Shown: positions 6,640 to 46,999 of the stretch, piece by piece
Layout: each line of letters opens with the position of its first letter
How positions within the stretch are numbered: the stretch's first letter is position 1
DNA from: Prevotella bivia DSM 20514
GTDB lineage: Bacteria; Bacteroidota; Bacteroidia; Bacteroidales; Bacteroidaceae
Reading direction: 5' to 3'
NCBI RefSeq assembly: GCF_000262545.1
Contig: NZ_JH660659.1
Span: 67,240-131,239 of the forward strand
Length of the DNA stretch: 64,000 bases
Notes under the pieces: model-generated
The model's input: only the letters and a program-made list of their open reading frames with translations
What the model was told of the DNA's origin: nothing
The model's database searches: none
Translations under genes and position numbers: made by a program

Positions 6640-7677
6640 ATGCTTTTAGAAAAAATAGATAATCTCCTCAAGGAAGTAAGCGAGCTTTCAGCAAAGAAGG
6701 CTGAAGAAGTAGAGCAGCTTCGCTTGAGATTTCTTAGTAAGAAAGGTGAAATCACAGCATTAATGAGCGAGTTTCGTAATGTTCCTGCCGATCAAAAACG
6801 TGAAGTAGGTATCCGCATTAACGAATTAAAGCAACAAGCTCAAAACAAGATAAATGCGCTAAAGGAGCAACTTGCAACTAATGAAGCACAAAGTGATGAT
6901 ATCGACTTAACACGTACAGCTTACCCTATAGAGCTTGGTACACGTCATCCTTTAACCCTTGTTAAGAATGAAATTATCGACATTTTTGGTCGTATGGGGT
7001 TCACATTATATCAAGGACCTGAAATTGATGACGATCAACATGTATTTACAATGCTAAATTTTGCTGCTGATCATCCTGCACGTGATATGCAAGACACTTT
7101 TTTTATTGATCGTAGTAACACGCTCGATGTTACTAAGAATGTGCTTTTGCGTAGTCATACTTCTAATGATGAAGCCCACTATATGTCTACCCACGAACCT
7201 CCTATTCGTGTGCTTTGTCCTGGTCGTGTGTATCGTAACGAAGCCATTAGCGCCCGTGCGCATTGCTTCTTCCACCAAGTTGAGGGGCTTTATGTAGATA
7301 AAAATGTGAGCTTTACCGACTTGAAACAAGTTCTTCTCACCTTTGCACGTGAAATGTTTGGAGCTAATACTAAAATACGGTTGCGTCCTAGCTATTTCCC
7401 ATTCACAGAACCTAGTGCCGAGATGGATATTAGCTGTAATATCTGTGGTGGTGAAGGCTGTGGCTTCTGCAAACATACTGGTTGGGTTGAAATATTAGGT
7501 TGTGGTATGGTTGACCCACACGACCTTGAGGCTTGTGGTATTGACTCAAGTGTATATACAGGTTATGCTTTTGGTATGGGGGTAGAACGCATTGCAAATT
7601 TAAAGTATCGTGTAAGCGACCTTCGTCTTTTCTCTGAAAATGATACTCGCTTCTTACGTGAGTTTGAAGGCGCATAA
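6640..7677 (+). CDS. pheS: Phenylalanine-tRNA ligase alpha subunit
   Basis: Catalytic alpha chain of the alpha2-beta2 phenylalanyl-tRNA synthetase, which charges tRNA-Phe in the cytoplasm. The 345 residues match the family length: an N-terminal coiled coil (about 1-90) followed by the class II core, with HPLTLVKNEI, the motif-2 stretch RVYRNEAISARAHCFFHQVEG and motif 3 GFGMGVERIANLKYRV. The gene stands alone between its own promoter and terminator. Its partner pheT is about 41 kb away at 48472, a split arrangement rather than the pheST operon of many bacteria. Confidence 0.97.
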   Translation: MLLEKIDNLLKEVSELSAKKAEEVEQLRLRFLSKKGEITALMSEFRNVPADQKREVGIRINELKQQAQNKINALKEQLATNEAQSDDIDLTRTAYPIELGTRHPLTLVKNEIIDIFGRMGFTLYQGPEIDDDQHVFTMLNFAADHPARDMQDTFFIDRSNTLDVTKNVLLRSHTSNDEAHYMSTHEPPIRVLCPGRVYRNEAISARAHCFFHQVEGLYVDKNVSFTDLKQVLLTFAREMFGANTKIRLRPSYFPFTEPSAEMDISCNICGGEGCGFCKHTGWVEILGCGMVDPHDLEACGIDSSVYTGYAFGMGVERIANLKYRVSDLRLFSENDTRFLREFEGA

Positions 7678-7706
7678 TAATTTTTGATGCAAAAGCTCTA
7701 TAAAAT

Positions 7707-7747
7707 AATAACTAGGTTCAACAAGCTTTTCTTTGAACCTAGTTATT
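7707..7747. terminator. Long hairpin terminator after pheS
   Basis: AATAACTAGGTTCAA (7707-7721) is perfectly complementary to 7733-7747, with an 11-base loop. The following T-run is interrupted (GTTGTTTAT), so efficiency is uncertain; it also faces the convergent nitroreductase gene. Confidence 0.75.
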
Positions 7748-7874
7748 GTTGTTTATAAATGTTTCGATTTTTATAGCCTACATATTATATAATCCTAATG
7801 CAATTACTAAAAACGCTCTTTTAAGACTAATAATATTCGGTTAATTTTTTTTAGAAAATATTTGACAACCAACT

Positions 7875-7977
7875 AATCTGTCATCTTTTTTATTTAAAAA
7901 GGTCATCTTTTACACAGTTAAAGGTTATCTTTTGATGAGTAAAAGATGACCTTTTGCTTCTTAAAAGATAACCTTTT
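7875..7977. repeat. 22-bp-phased pseudo-palindrome array A (five units)
   Basis: 15-mers start at 7875, 7897, 7919, 7941 and 7963, exactly 22 bp apart: AATCTGTCATCTTTT (degenerate), AAAAGGTCATCTTTT, TAAAGGTTATCTTTT, AAAAGATGACCTTTT and AAAAGATAACCTTTT. Units 2 and 4 are exact reverse complements, and units 3 and 5 are reverse complements apart from one end base. The array sits in a ~480-bp gap between convergent genes (pheS and nitroreductase). Related arrays occur at 31175 and 40848. The rest of the gap (7978-8157) shows no gene. Confidence 0.9.
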
Positions 7978-8157
7978 ATTTTATGATTTTAAATTGCTGT
8001 TAATCAGCATGATACGTTGTTGGCTGTTTTATAAATCCTTATGTTGTTATAAGTAAAAATAGTTGACTTTCACTAGATTTATCAAACACTTACTACTTTT
8101 TGAGAAGAATATTTGCTAAAATATAAATTTTTATGAGGAAAGACGGTATATCTCTAA

Positions 8158-8883
8158 TTATATTCTATGGTAAACTTCATCAAATGGGAGGCGGAAACGA
8201 TCACCATGCACACCATCTGGTACTCGAATACCACAAGTTATAATCATATTAATTTCACAGTTGTAAGGTAGTGAAAGTGCTTTCTTTACCAATTTGCTAT
8301 CAAAGCCTTCAAGTGGACACGTATCGTATCCAGCTTCAGCCATACCGAGCATAAAGGTTTGTACGGCAAGTGCGCAACTTTTATGTGTAACAACTCGCAT
8401 ATCTTGTTCGGAAACTTGTCGAATAATAGGTCGAAACATACCAATTACTTGTGCGAGTAGCTTTCTGAATGCTCCTATACCCCCGAAGCATCTGCTATAT
8501 ACAAAAGGCATTAGTTTGCCATAATATTGGTATACCACTTTAGACCGTCTTTCGTGGGTTTCAGCAGGGCTATTGCGCTTGATATTTCCTAGTTCAAAAT
8601 CTAAATTTGCTTTAGCATGTTCTTTATATTTGTCTTGACGTGTTACGAACACTACAATTTCTTGTGCTGTTCGTGCTGTCTTTTGTCCAAGCAAAGCTAT
8701 AGTAAGTTTGTCTTTTACGGCTTGATCTGTAATGTGATAACATTCCCATAGCTGCATATTTGAGCTAGTAGGGGCTAGTGTTGCCATTCTTAGACATTCC
8801 TTCACGCGCTCAGTGTCTAGTGGCTTGTTTTCATCAAAATGACGAATAGCTCGACGGTGTTCTAATATCTCGTTTAAACTCAT
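8158..8883 (-). CDS. Nitroreductase-family FMN oxidoreductase
   Basis: A 241-residue nitroreductase-fold protein. The N-terminal signature RRAIRHFDENKPLDTERVKECLRMA with LAPTSSNMQLWECYHI is the FMN-binding start of the family, and AEAGYDTCPLEGFD with INMIITCGIRVPDG is the usual C-terminal part. Such enzymes use NAD(P)H and FMN to reduce nitro, quinone or flavin substrates; the substrate cannot be told. It is a single leftward gene. A GTGTT-CT-AACAC palindrome (8926-8937), about 40 bases upstream of the start, could be an operator for a redox or other regulator, which is inference. Confidence 0.85.
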   Translation of the reverse strand: MSLNEILEHRRAIRHFDENKPLDTERVKECLRMATLAPTSSNMQLWECYHITDQAVKDKLTIALLGQKTARTAQEIVVFVTRQDKYKEHAKANLDFELGNIKRNSPAETHERRSKVVYQYYGKLMPFVYSRCFGGIGAFRKLLAQVIGMFRPIIRQVSEQDMRVVTHKSCALAVQTFMLGMAEAGYDTCPLEGFDSKLVKKALSLPYNCEINMIITCGIRVPDGVHGDRFRLPFDEVYHRI

Positions 8884-19171: not shown

Positions 19172-20149
19172 ATGGCTAAGATAAAAACTATTGGTATTCT
19201 TACATCAGGAGGAGATGCTCCAGGTATGAATGCAGCAATTAGAGCTGTTACACGTGCTGGCATTTATAATGGTTTTTCCGTAAAGGGTATTTATCGTGGT
19301 TATGATGGTTTGATTTCTGGTGACATCAAGTCTTTTACTACTGAAAATGTAAGTGGTATCATAGGGCAAGGTGGCACTATATTAAAAACAGCACGCTCGC
19401 AAGCCTTTAAGACTCCAGAAGGAAGAGCAAAGGCATACGAAACAATTCAAAAAGAAAAAATAGACGCACTTGTGGTGATTGGTGGTAACGGATCACTTAC
19501 GGGTGCGATGCTTTTTGCTCAAGAATATGATATTTGCTGTATTGGATTGCCTGGTACAATTGATAATGACCTATATGGCACAGATAATACCATTGGTTAT
19601 GATACAACACTGAATACGATTATGGATAGTGTGGATCGCATTAGAGATACTGCACAGAGTCATGAACGTATTTTTTTTGTTGAAGTAATGGGACGCGATG
19701 CAGGTTTCTTAGCACAAAACTCTGCTATAGCATGTGGTGCAGAGGCAGCTATTATTCCAGAAGACTCAACTGATGTTGACCAGTTAGCTCGTTTTATGCA
19801 ACGCGGTATCCGAAAATCAAAAAAGAGCTGTATAGTAATAGTATCCGAAAGTCCAAAGTGTGGAGCAATGTACTATGCTGACCGTGTTCGTAAGGAATTT
19901 CCTGATTATGATGTTCGTGTTTCTATCCTCGGACACTTACAAAGGGGAGGAAGACCCTCGGCACGTGATAGAATATTAGCAGGCAGAACAGGTGTTGGTG
20001 CAATAGAAGCAATTTTGCAAGGACAGAGAAATATTATGGTTGGTGATAGAAACAATGAACTTATTTATGTTCCTCTATCTGAAGCCATTAGAAAGGATAA
20101 GCCTTTTGACAAAAAACTTATTAAAGTCTTAGATGAATTAAGTATCTAA
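19172..20149 (+). CDS. pfkA: ATP-dependent 6-phosphofructokinase
   Basis: The committed step of glycolysis, fructose-6-phosphate plus ATP to fructose-1,6-bisphosphate. The ATP-binding loop is [17 protein letters not shown] at the N-terminus, and catalysis is by the Asp in [31 protein letters not shown] and [15 protein letters not shown] are the substrate and effector regions. The 325 residues match the bacterial short PFK, and the Gly after GGD indicates ATP rather than pyrophosphate use. The ATP synthase operon begins 55 bases downstream, with no terminator seen between them. Confidence 0.95.
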
Positions 20150-31147: not shown

Positions 31148-31283
31148 TAACAGCTTGATATTCATTGTGTTATAAAAAGGTCGTCTTTTGCGGTGCAAAA
31201 GATAACCTTTTCATACGTAATACATCATCTTTTGTGTTGTAAAAGGTGGTGTATTACGATGTAAACGCTTATGTATTGAATAG
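31148..31283. repeat. 22-bp-phased pseudo-palindrome array B with conserved flanks
   Basis: 15-mers start at 31175, 31197, 31219, 31241 and 31263, all 22 bp apart: AAAAGGTCGTCTTTT, AAAAGATAACCTTTT, AATACATCATCTTTT, AAAAGGTGGTGTATT and AAACGCTTATGTATT. The left flank (TAACA..TGATA..CAT..GTT) and right flank (..ATGTATTGAATAG) match those of array C at 40822-40956 over the same ~135-bp layout. It lies in the 690-bp gap between the convergent rprY and uvrA. The rest of the gap (30850-31147 and 31284-31497) shows no supported gene. Confidence 0.9.
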
Positions 31284-40821: not shown

Positions 40822-40956
40822 TAACAAACTGATAGACATATAGTTGCAAAAGGTGATGTTTTACAATGCAAAAGGTGATGTTTTAATGCGTAAAAGATGA
40901 CCTTTTACATCATAAAAGGTAGCCTTTTGCAATTAAAAAGCTGATGTATGGGATAG
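40822..40956. repeat. 22-bp-phased pseudo-palindrome array C with conserved flanks
   Basis: 15-mers start at 40848, 40870, 40892, 40914 and 40936, exactly 22 bp apart: AAAAGGTGATGTTTT twice, AAAAGATGACCTTTT, AAAAGGTAGCCTTTT and AAAAGCTGATGTATG. Its flanks TAACA..CTGATA..CAT..GTT and ATGTATGGGATAG match array B. It lies in the 1.2-kb gap between the DUF4923-like gene and htrA, next to the palindrome cluster and a pseudogene. Confidence 0.92.
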
Positions 40957-41702: not shown

Positions 41703-43181
41703 ATGAAGAACTTATCAAAAATTCTTGTAGGCGCAACTTGTGTTACCGCCCTCGCCTTATCAACAGGCGCATTTATGAAGGTTTATGCCGCTCCAGTGTT
41801 TTCTTCAGTAACAGCCGGACCTGGTCAACCAGTCGATTTAACATACGCATCGGAGAAAGCACTCCCTGCAGTAGTTCATATTAAGTATGTACAGAACTCA
41901 AAGACGAAGACCGTTGATGTGCAAGAAGATCCGTTTGGTGGCTTCTTCGATCCTTTCGGCTTTTTCGATCAGTTCCAAGGTGGACAAGGTGGTTCACGTC
42001 GTCAGCAAATACAAACTCCTAAACGACAAGCTACAGGTAGTGGTGTTATCATATCATCGGATGGCTATATAGTAACTAATAATCACGTTGTGGAAGGTGC
42101 CGACGAACTCACCGTAACCCTCAACGACAATCGTGAGTATAATGCGAAGATAGTAGGAACAGATAAGCAAACCGATCTTGCGCTTATAAAGGTCAATGCA
42201 AAAAACTTACCAGCTCTTCCTATTGGCGATTCCGAGAAGTTGAAGGTAGGCGAGTGGGTTATCGCTGTAGGCAATCCTTACAACCTAAGTTCTACAGTTA
42301 CAGCAGGTATTGTAAGTGCTAAGTCGCGTGGTCTTGGTGCTACACATGGTGGTATAGAGAGTTTTATACAGACCGATGCAGCCATTAATCCGGGTAACTC
42401 TGGGGGTGCACTTGTCAATACGCAAGGCGAGCTAGTGGGTATTAATGCTATGCTTTATTCTCAGACAGGTTCGTATAGTGGTTATGGTTTTGCTATTCCT
42501 ACTTCTATTATGACAAAGGTGGTAGAGGATATAAAAAAGTATGGCAGTGTACAGCGTGTGATGCTAGGTATTCAAGGTGGCGACGTTCTCAACTATATCA
42601 ACGCTCAGAAGGAAGAAGGCAAGACAGTGGATTTGGGTACCAATGAGGGAGTTTACGTTGATAAGGTAGATGAAGAAGGTAATGGAGCTTCAGCAGGTTT
42701 GCAGAAAGGCGATGTTATCACCCAATTTGATGGCACAAAGGTAACCAAGATGGCAGAGTTACAGCAGGCACTCAATGCGAAACGTCCTGGCGATAAGGCT
42801 AATATTACCTATCTTCGCAATAAGAAAAGTATCACAAAGACAATCGTTCTAAAAAATGCACAAGGTACTACAAAACTTCTTGAGCAAGCTGATATTGATG
42901 TGTTAGGTGGTCAGTTCCGTCCTGTTAGTCAGACTCTAAAACAACAACTTGGTATTAGCTATGGACTAGAAGTAATGAAGGTAAGCAGTGGTGCGTTGAA
43001 ACAAGCAGGTATTCCTCGTGGTTATATTATTCAGAATGTAAACGACAATCCTGTTAAGACCATTGACGATTTGCAAGCTATTGTGAAGAAGTCGTCGACA
43101 AGCAAAGATCCTGTTCTCTACATTCAGGGTATTTACCCAACAGGTAAGAAAGGCTATTTTGCTGTGCCTTTGTCAGAATAA
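41703..43181 (+). CDS. htrA: Periplasmic serine protease/chaperone of the HtrA/DegP family
   Basis: 492 residues: an N-terminal signal sequence (1-30), a trypsin-like domain with triad His128 (TNNHVVEG), Asp158 (TDLALIKV) and Ser233 (NPGNSGGAL), then two PDZ domains (about 290-385 and 400-490; ASAGLQKGDVITQFDGTKV, KQAGIPRGYIIQNVNDNPV). A disordered FGGFFDPFGFFDQFQGGQGG loop near 78-98 is typical of DegP's LA loop. It degrades or refolds damaged envelope proteins. A terminator follows at once, and the second IS1634-type copy lies just beyond. Confidence 0.95.
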   Translation: MKNLSKILVGATCVTALALSTGAFMKVYAAPVFSSVTAGPGQPVDLTYASEKALPAVVHIKYVQNSKTKTVDVQEDPFGGFFDPFGFFDQFQGGQGGSRRQQIQTPKRQATGSGVIISSDGYIVTNNHVVEGADELTVTLNDNREYNAKIVGTDKQTDLALIKVNAKNLPALPIGDSEKLKVGEWVIAVGNPYNLSSTVTAGIVSAKSRGLGATHGGIESFIQTDAAINPGNSGGALVNTQGELVGINAMLYSQTGSYSGYGFAIPTSIMTKVVEDIKKYGSVQRVMLGIQGGDVLNYINAQKEEGKTVDLGTNEGVYVDKVDEEGNGASAGLQKGDVITQFDGTKVTKMAELQQALNAKRPGDKANITYLRNKKSITKTIVLKNAQGTTKLLEQADIDVLGGQFRPVSQTLKQQLGISYGLEVMKVSSGALKQAGIPRGYIIQNVNDNPVKTIDDLQAIVKKSSTSKDPVLYIQGIYPTGKKGYFAVPLSE

Positions 43182-45042: not shown

Positions 45043-46999
45043 CTTGCTTCTTTAGCGTATGTATATGTCTTGAGATGTGATTAACGATGAGCGGAACATT
45101 CTCTACCGTTGTGTTGCTAGTATCAAGACCCAATGATTTTACATCAGGAATACCAATATGCTTTATAATAGCATAAAGCATCATCATAAAGTTTTGCATC
45201 TTGTTTTTAGAACTTGCTGCGTAAAAAATGCGATGGACGATGATAAAACGGAAATCGCCTGCCATGTTGCGTTTTGCTAGCGACTTGTAACCACTGATAA
45301 TATTAAATTTCTTTTCAGCTACAAGATCTTCAATCACTTTACGTAAATAAACGGTGAGGAAGGGTTGCACACGGAAACCAATGCGCACATTAATGCGGAA
45401 AAGCGTATCTTCTATGAGTGGCTCAAAAGTATATTCAAGTGTTTCTGGTTCGTCGACATACTCAAAGTGGAATAGCCAATAGTGGTCAGCACGTTTGGGT
45501 TGTTTATGGATAATGGAATAAATAACCTTATTCTCAATCATATCAGCGCTATCCGACTTGCTGACATATACGAGATTGGTGGCATACTTAGGTAGCGTGT
45601 CATCGTGCTTTAAGTCGGATATAATATCAAAATATTGCTTAATAGGATGAAACTCCATATAGCTATTTCTGATTCTTTGTGCAGTGTACCATATATACAT
45701 AGTGCCAAAAAGAATACCTGCCAGCATAATGGTAAACCATCCGCCATGGAAGAACTTAAAAAGATTGGCTATAAAGAAGAAGCTTTCAATGGTAAGGAAT
45801 ACACTGGCAAAGGTTATGACAATGGCTTTTTTAGTCCCTTTCATACGTAGATAAAACGCTAGGAGTAAGGTGGTCATAAGCATTGTAATCGTGATAGATA
45901 GTCCGTAAGCAGCTTCCATCTTGCTAGAAGAACCAAACACCAAAATGGTAATGATACAGAAAAGGTATAAGAAAGCATTTACACGTGGGATATACAGTTG
46001 ACCCTTAATTTGGGTAGGATATTTTATTCTTAAGCGTGGCATAAAATTAAGGTTCATAGCCTCACTAAAGATAGTAAACGATCCGCTTATCAAAGCCTGA
46101 CTAGCAATAACGGCAGCCAGTGTAGCCATGATAATGCCCACCATTAGAAACTCTTTTGGGACAATGGCATAGAAAGGGTTGATACCATCGGTAATCAAAT
46201 TTCTGTGTGCAATGATCCATGCTCCTTGTCCAAGGTAGTTGAGGATAAGCATTGACTTAACAAAAAGCCAACTGATAGTAATGTTTTTTCTGCCACAATG
46301 CCCAAGGTCAGAATATAATGCTTCAGCACCCGTAGTACAAAGGAATACTGCTCCAAGTATTAAGAACCATTCAGGGTTATGCAGTAATAATTCGAAAGCA
46401 TAATAAGGATTAAAGGCTTTCAAGATACCAATGTGGTGAGGCAAGTTGATAATACCCACAAGTCCTAACATTGAAAACCATACGAACATAATAGGACCGA
46501 ACGATTTTCCTATTAAGTTAGTACCAAACTGCTGAATGAAGAATAGTACAGAGATAATAGCGATGCAAATGGGAATGACTGGCGTTTCAGGTGAGAAGGC
46601 TTGTAAACCTTCTATAGCCGAGACTACCGTAATGGAAGGGGTAATAATGCCATCGGCTACTAAGGTGCTTGCCCCTATGATAGCTGCAATATAGAGCCAG
46701 CGGCGACGATGCTTTCGTAGCAGTGCATAGAGTGCTAATATTCCCCCCTCACCATGATTGTCGGCTTTTAGTGCTATTAGCACATACTTTACAGAAGTTT
46801 GTAGGGTTAGTGTCCAAATAATGCATGATACAGCACCTATAATATAATTGGTATCAAACTGTGGATAGGCTCTCACAATAGTACTCATTACATAGAGTGG
46901 GGAGGTACCAATATCACCAAATACAATACCTAGCGTAACCATAATGCCTAATAAAGACAACTTGTTGGCTTTATTGGCATGAGAAGAATTTGTGTCCAT
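45032..46999 (-). CDS. kup: Kup-type low-affinity potassium transporter
   Basis: A 655-residue inner-membrane K+/H+ symporter with twelve predicted helices followed by a ~200-residue cytoplasmic C-terminal domain. Family strings are LGIVFGDIGTSPLYVMSTIV, ADNHGEGGILALYALLRK, GASTLVADGIITPSITVVSAIEGLQ and TGAEALYSDLGHCGRKNI. Its stop codon lies inside the target duplication of the neighbouring insertion sequence, so the insertion regenerated an intact gene end. Confidence 0.95.
   Translation of the reverse strand: MDTNSSHANKANKLSLLGIMVTLGIVFGDIGTSPLYVMSTIVRAYPQFDTNYIIGAVSCIIWTLTLQTSVKYVLIALKADNHGEGGILALYALLRKHRRRWLYIAAIIGASTLVADGIITPSITVVSAIEGLQAFSPETPVIPICIAIISVLFFIQQFGTNLIGKSFGPIMFVWFSMLGLVGIINLPHHIGILKAFNPYYAFELLLHNPEWFLILGAVFLCTTGAEALYSDLGHCGRKNITISWLFVKSMLILNYLGQGAWIIAHRNLITDGINPFYAIVPKEFLMVGIIMATLAAVIASQALISGSFTIFSEAMNLNFMPRLRIKYPTQIKGQLYIPRVNAFLYLFCIITILVFGSSSKMEAAYGLSITITMLMTTLLLAFYLRMKGTKKAIVITFASVFLTIESFFFIANLFKFFHGGWFTIMLAGILFGTMYIWYTAQRIRNSYMEFHPIKQYFDIISDLKHDDTLPKYATNLVYVSKSDSADMIENKVIYSIIHKQPKRADHYWLFHFEYVDEPETLEYTFEPLIEDTLFRINVRIGFRVQPFLTVYLRKVIEDLVAEKKFNIISGYKSLAKRNMAGDFRFIIVHRIFYAASSKNKMQNFMMMLYAIIKHIGIPDVKSLGLDTSNTTVENVPLIVNHISRHIHTLKKQEKV

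Follow-up and report, generated by a model that had tools for sequence, protein, structure and literature searches.

The window analysed here (C2:67240-131239) is a stretch of 64,000 nucleotides from Prevotella bivia DSM 20514, whose genome comprises 2.52 Mb in three contigs. Its pheS gene (6640–7677; PF01409) faces a convergent nitroreductase-family gene (8158–8883, minus strand; PF00881), and the region between the two genes contains an array of five 15-bp units that follow each other in exact 22-bp steps (7875–7977). Immediately 3′ of pheS and outside the array lies a plus-strand hairpin with 18-nt arms (94%; 7704–7750), which is likely a terminator and separate from the array. On the plus strand, the array consists of the degenerate unit 1, AATCTGTCATCTTTT (7875–7889), unit 2, AAAAGGTCATCTTTT (7897–7911), unit 3, TAAAGGTTATCTTTT, which starts with TAAA (7919–7933), unit 4, AAAAGATGACCTTTT (7941–7955), and unit 5, AAAAGATAACCTTTT (7963–7977). 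Units 2 and 4 are exact reverse complements of each other, and so are the cores of units 3 and 5, as the original prediction had stated.

The array forms the core of a dispersed repeat element of about 268 bp (7803–8070, unstranded), the ends of which were estimated from own-genome matches and an alignment of nine copies. With window positions 7770–8100 as query, 80 matches were obtained in the same genome. The window copy and eight others (70–79% identity) reach into the arms that flank the array, and these arm-extending matches are mostly confined to positions 7803–8070. The nine aligned copies share near-invariant arm motifs (left, TAGAAAATATTTAACA; right, TAAGTAAAAATAGTT-AC), which correspond in the window to TAGAAAATATTTGACA (7852–7867, plus strand) and TAAGTAAAAATAGTTGAC (8050–8067, plus strand). 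The arms vary between arrays, and other arrays on contig C2 have arms unlike those of the window element. Two further arrays in the window, at 31175–31277 (with arms differing from those of the first array) and 40848–40950, each comprise four units and one degenerate unit and are unstranded. The window as a whole contains 58 unit-like matches (both strands, at most three mismatches) compared with 23.1 ± 5.5 in shuffled sequences, and none of 100 shuffles reached 58. The window also holds a match to the Bacteroidetes FopS paralogous sRNA family (Rfam RF04319; 13799–13865, 74.9 bits) and two DDE transposase ORFs (PF01609; 13939–15615 and 43240–44967), which probably represent the same insertion sequence in two copies.

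Across the P. bivia genome, a two-unit pattern allowing no more than three mismatches matched 220 sites in forward and 223 in reverse orientation, compared with 1 and 0 for the pattern read backwards. Contig C2 contains 28 arrays of at least two units, and three Markov-shuffled versions of it contained 0, 1 and 2. The constant part of the arrays is a frame of the form A4-N7-T4-N7, that is, an A or T tract every 11 bp. Neighbouring perfect A4-N7-T4 units located 15–60 bp apart on C2 were spaced by 22 bp in 20 of 24 pairs and by 44 bp in the other 4 of 24. When such pairs were counted in five data sets, a spacing of 22 or 44 bp was found for 24/24 pairs on C2, 34/37 in a stretch of P. bivia contig C3, 36/37 in P. 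nigrescens, 19/20 in genome G099 (P. intermedia-like by inference; contigs of 1.97 and 0.71 Mb) and 25/27 in genome G366. The exact 22-bp spacing described for the units starting at 7875, 7897, 7919, 7941 and 7963 thus holds far beyond the window: all five data sets are phase-locked and not randomly spaced, and the array is confirmed as a member of a genome-wide 22-bp family. A second type of array in P. bivia consists of the AT palindrome TTTTTAATTTATTTTT flanked on both sides by degenerate 22-bp units; on C2 it occurs near positions 19425, 143178, 231276, 279660, 304552, 334692 and 357323. A coding function was set aside as unlikely, as a period of 22 bp is not a multiple of three.

The 7-nt spacers are symmetric in the sense T4-R...Y-A4. 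No base-pair co-variation was found between their ends in P. bivia (A-T 29, A-C 25, G-T 19, G-C 10; p = 0.36) or in the other two of the three genomes tested, with P. nigrescens leaning against pairing (p = 0.09) and G099 at p = 1.0. A spacer that is symmetric without co-variation of its ends points to a symmetry of double-stranded DNA and not to a folded strand. The lack of co-variation in these three genomes also leaves the pseudoknot proposed earlier without support. As a search of four sources also gave no Rfam match within the arrays, a pseudoknot or other structured RNA was rejected.

The frame is kept in relatives of P. bivia. Of 398 genomes sampled from the genus, 127 contained a three-unit frame pattern with at most one mismatch, and about 48 of these, including the genome of the window, had at least ten matches (hand count from the table); the reversed control is unclean for this pattern because long arrays match the reversed pattern too. 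Of 295 genomes in an order-level sample, 20 matched, and by eye the matches listed were mostly AT-rich low-complexity DNA with the exception of G580, which has arrays with GTYNRAC words. Four of 11 named genomes contained matches, namely P. falsenii (403), P. pallens (123), P. ihumii (3) and P. ruminicola (1). The 7-nt words between the tracts vary by species and include GRTNAYS in P. bivia, CAGCCGC, CCTACGC and CAATAGG in G099, CAGGCTC in P. nigrescens, and GTGCCAC, GTTCAAC and GGGGAAC in G366. A phage origin was rejected: the exact three-unit pattern occurred in four stretches of a viral collection, three of which carried G099-type words, and one 88-base query matched no phage record.

P. 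pallens (G695) possesses an additional family of 22-bp arrays made of CAGATATCTG palindromes, with 339 forward pairs compared with 0 in the control. Neighbouring CAGATATCTG palindromes were 22 bp apart in 37 of 40 cases in the loci first read and in 16 of 26 cases (at most 60 bp apart) in a 400-kb stretch. Within positions 1–400000 of P. pallens contig C2, all 39 of 39 A4/T4 arrays were located in the first 281 kb and four of five CAGATATCTG arrays beyond, as if the two unrelated 22-bp families occupied different stretches by territory. Other repeats were noted in further genomes. P. veroralis has three TTAGATAA units with an exact 21-bp period near the pheS locus (L067, intergenic at about 7700–8000), and Segatella maculosa has five GTATAGGAGT repeats with a 41-bp period behind pheS (L074). 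In the Prevotella genomes G325 and G161 (e.g. L192, L193), AT-rich repeats of 22 bp that contain TTTTCATGAAG were seen, and these may be a further variant of the frame.

Arrays with other words also follow pheS in P. falsenii and in two strains of P. nigrescens, at distances of about 170 and 20 bp from the gene. A comparison of array positions between G099 and P. nigrescens relied on one-sided flanks, as two-sided ortholog mapping had given 2 pairs. Of 42 usable G099 flank queries, 18 located an array in P. nigrescens close to where it was expected and 24 did not; the order of genes differs strongly between the two. The clearest pair of orthologous arrays from these sister species (G099 142935; P. 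nigrescens 48945 of the joined stretch) has kept its arms and phase and differs in all four words, and the P. nigrescens words are no longer mutually inverse. A region at about 150 kb in P. nigrescens NZ_CP082843.1 carries G099 words and is 94–97% identical to G099 contig C2, compared with mostly 65–88% in other orthologous blocks; it was probably acquired in a recent transfer, and two of the 18 flank-mapped arrays point to it. We infer that gene conversion among the copies homogenises the words of each species. Separately, a second RF04319 match was found in G099 (L175, 17057–17123), about 220 bp past an array.

Inverse word pairs outnumbered direct pairs 55 to 27 in 37 P. bivia arrays, a value reached by none of 1000 word flips, and 43 to 0 in 45 G099 arrays, the copies of which share descent. 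The difference was not significant in P. nigrescens (20 to 12 in 29 arrays; p = 0.10) and was reversed in the pooled other species (39 inverse and 63 direct pairs in 22 arrays). At least one inverse pair was present in 30/37 arrays of P. bivia, 15/29 of P. nigrescens, 42/45 of G099 and 15/22 of the pooled others, and this content exceeded the flip null only in P. bivia and G099. Within the nine window-family copies, pairing inside an element was slightly above the level between elements. The 44 aligned four-unit elements of G099 are about 190 bp long, have conserved arms and follow a word grammar with an exchange between positions 2 and 3. No significant co-change was observed for the end bases of the word pair in G099 (17/2/9/6, p = 0.10). 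A preserved inverted pairing, as originally proposed, is thus seen as an excess in P. bivia but is not general. The interlocked 2-4/3-5 order is true of the window array but was rejected as a rule, because it occurs in only 4 of 30 arrays of at least four units.

Of 112 arrays from three genomes, 104 were located in counted intergenic regions, with 41 between convergent, 48 between tandem and 15 between divergent genes. Genes were defined by our own ORF calls, and ORFs shorter than 200 aa that overlapped arrays were dropped; before this step, 36 of the 112 arrays lay in ORF calls of at least 90 aa. Convergent placement exceeded the expectation (p = 0.0015 by number of regions, p = 0.03 by length), and divergent placement was not significantly below it (p = 0.06 and 0.22). 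The A4/T4 arrays are thus intergenic and most often located near gene 3′ ends. Between tandem genes of G099, no significant strand preference was observed (12 arrays with and 7 against the genes, p = 0.36).

The distances between arrays were compared with a null model of random placement with one array per intergenic region; a null allowing several per region gave smaller p values. Both P. bivia stretches were over-evenly spaced. At 560–960 kb of contig C3, a stretch picked since an earlier listing showed arrays there, 28 positions of both array types had a coefficient of variation (CV) of 0.36 compared with 0.86 under the null (0 of 10,000 draws as low), and the smallest gap was 8.1 kb. On C2, 17 positions had a CV of 0.53 (p = 0.006). 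Two array pieces 121 bp apart were merged into one position for these tests. Neighbours of different type, in a count that kept the two pieces separate, were at least 9.6 kb apart in the C3 stretch and 5.3 kb on C2. The CV was 0.50–0.56 (p up to 0.0007) over 250 kb of P. nigrescens, in a set that leaves out an array-free stretch at 330–380 kb (L172) and a stretch at 518–568 kb (L167). Over-evenness by CV was absent in G099 (p = 0.15–0.28), G366 (p = 0.76–0.95) and the A4/T4 arrays of P. pallens (p = 0.91). For arrays of at least three units, the smallest gaps in these genomes were above chance (G099, 1667 bp, p up to 0.0007; G366, 7813 bp, p = 0.0017; P. pallens, 1603 bp, p = 0.011). When two-unit arrays were counted as well, the smallest gap was significant neither on C2 (p = 0.26–0.29) nor in G366 (p = 0.35). 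Taken together, the gap and CV tests indicate that avoidance of close neighbours is common and that evenness occurs in two of five genomes. A strict lattice was rejected, as the best period performed no better than under a hard-core null (p = 0.42 for C3, p = 0.80 for C2), and the pattern is therefore one of minimum distance plus evenness.

DNA curvature was predicted by a dinucleotide wedge model, and percentiles were ranked against P. bivia C2 windows for all species. The A4/T4 arrays, with their A and T tracts in helical phase, are predicted to be strongly curved: for 96 four-unit arrays from six sets, the median modelled curvature was within the top 0.1–0.6% of C2 windows. The predicted curvature was abolished when each spacer was lengthened by 3 or 5 bp and raised when it was shortened by 1 bp, which gives a 21-bp period. 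The higher model curvature at 21 bp fits DNA with a helical repeat longer than the relaxed one of the model; equally, it may mean that curvature is not the property that was optimised. No curvature is predicted for the CAGATATCTG arrays of P. pallens (median percentile 0.47), which have the 22-bp period as well.

The original view that no described element has this layout was too strong, given the PINSR repeat of P. intermedia. PINSR is a 188-bp intergenic repeat without a known role, of which two strains of P. intermedia carry 177 and 184 copies (PMC4755523, Naito et al. 2015). That paper also describes it in P. nigrescens, P. falsenii and P. disiens, calls it group-specific and states that it has no inverted repeat at its ends. 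In the open-access literature searched, nothing on 22-bp Prevotella repeats was found beyond this paper, the available text of which mentions neither a 22-bp frame nor a role. The elements of G099, P. nigrescens and P. falsenii, whose cores consist of four A4-N7-T4 units in 22-bp steps, match the reported size and species range. Judged by size, species and placement, PINSR is thus very probably one lineage's version of the 22-bp architecture. The window element resembles PINSR in being intergenic and present in many copies without an evident gene, but it has other arms and words and occurs in another species. A comparison of 88 G099 arms with 800 kb of P. bivia sequence gave 55 matches at E ≤ 0.1, and the twelve listed were short (15–28 bp, E of 0.009 or worse); the window arms matched their own copies with E values down to 1e-12 apart from the self-match. 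Judged by its arms, the window element is not a PINSR copy.

The arrays also resemble the BIME and REP sequences of enterobacteria, which are palindromic repeats dispersed by the hundreds between genes, but these differ in sequence and unit design, whereas the Prevotella arrays have an exact 22-bp frame, A/T phasing and no link to a RAYT (Y1) protein. A RAYT/REP-like system is unsupported and was rejected: among 18 genomes rich in arrays, 5 had the Y1 transposase domain PF01797, which also covers IS200/IS605 transposases, as against 9 among 18 genomes without arrays (p = 0.31). Outside the window, P. bivia C2 carries two copies of a Y1 transposase that score equally and lie in opposite orientation (42744–43100 and 46554–46910). 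Plasmid centromeres of the ParR/parC type carry iterons at about 11 bp on bent DNA that are bound by a small dimeric protein. They form one plasmid locus beside its genes, in contrast to the dozens of scattered chromosomal sites in Prevotella. The BrickBuilt MITE of Porphyromonas gingivalis, a member of the same order, is likewise intergenic, with tandem repeats of about two helical turns (23 nt), but as described it has direct repeats with another consensus, terminal inverted repeats related to IS elements and no A4/T4 frame (PMC4596501). Phased A-tracts at 10–11 bp have been proposed to help pack the nucleoid (PMC3940949, PMC1242344); as far as these sources describe them, they are diffuse statistical signals, in contrast to the discrete Prevotella arrays with exact phase and repeated words.

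Among the roles considered originally, a nucleoid-type protein-binding site is retained as the best reading, and a role in termination or as a mobile repeat appears unlikely. If the arrays acted as RNA, their inverted words would form 15-bp hairpins with A4/U4 flanks that serve two-sided termination or 3′-end protection of transcripts. The inverse words of P. bivia and G099 and the enrichment between convergent genes agree with this, and the actual arrays fold better than word-flipped ones by a mean of −2.1 kcal in P. bivia and −3.9 kcal in G099. However, P. nigrescens shows no pairing excess, and in the pooled other species, where the trend is reversed, flipped arrays fold no worse. The orthologous array described above lost its inverse pairs and retained its phase, spacer ends do not co-vary in the three genomes, and no Rfam family matched within the arrays in the four sources. 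Furthermore, 15 of 104 arrays lie between divergent genes, pheS is already followed by a separate hairpin, and a hairpin does not need an exact 22-bp step. We therefore consider an RNA role improbable.

A similarly low probability is assigned to the arrays being non-autonomous, MITE-like mobile DNA spread by a transposase, in which case the avoidance of close copies would reflect target immunity or recombinational loss. Such an origin would be consistent with the arms repeated around the array in the window family and G099, with the minimum gaps above chance and with the ends of the G099 consensus (TGTAAAgATaaTTC and GAAAAATATTTACA), which by eye resemble inverted repeats of imperfect match; no inverted ends were noticed in the nine window-family copies. 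Against it, 18 of 42 flank queries led to P. nigrescens arrays close to the orthologous position (two of the 18 in the one probably transferred region), a 50-kb P. nigrescens stretch with mobile genes contained no arrays, a common spacing holds for two array types whose arms differ, and the Y1 transposase is not associated with arrays. Word pairs and repeated arms nevertheless keep the terminator and mobile-element explanations alive. Least probable among these alternatives is that the units are operators or centromere-like sites of a specific dimeric DNA-binding protein that reads the words and changes in step with them from species to species. Such a protein would suit the near-palindromic, 22-bp-spaced units of several word sets and the other, unrelated palindrome that P. 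pallens repeats every 22 bp. Against it, specificity would hardly evolve at dozens of sites simultaneously, a single genome can hold several words, and some word sets are not palindromic.

Arrays that are phase-locked, free in their letters, predicted to be bent, without significant strand preference and spaced apart are best accounted for by a nucleoid role at supercoiled loops, for which BIMEs offer the closest precedent (PMC6907758). The window array, at the heart of a dispersed intergenic repeat, is one of many on the chromosome with A4-N7-T4 blocks in exact 22-bp steps. We tentatively propose, at less than even confidence, that it would provide a platform of curved DNA, as predicted by the wedge model, for docking of a candidate nucleoid protein. 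The putative protein would likely bind on the same face of the DNA, and docked arrays would mark the tips or borders of supercoiled loops; the 11-bp half-period would suit negatively supercoiled DNA. Several points weigh against this docking platform, namely the lack of CV evenness in G099, G366 and P. pallens, the CAGATATCTG arrays without predicted curvature, the higher model curvature at 21 bp and the random placement of domain barriers described for E. coli (PMC6907758). The word pairing in P. bivia and G099 is left unexplained by it.

A broader possibility, which we regard as doubtful, is that Prevotella chromosomes are punctuated by a sequence-encoded system of supercoil domains, formed by bent arrays with a hard 22-bp frame that lie kilobases apart and are read by phase and not by sequence. 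Each species may then alter the letters, as far as the unrelated palindrome of P. pallens, with the frame and the avoidance of neighbours kept. Domain barriers in E. coli are described as randomly placed in a review of the nucleoid, which also reports that a BIME impedes the diffusion of supercoils, discusses a role of BIMEs as barriers and treats the nature of such barriers as an open question (PMC6907758). The fixed frame with changing words would represent a clean case of within-species homogenisation of repeated non-coding DNA, and a recognisable, self-distancing element would make the question of supercoil barriers directly testable.
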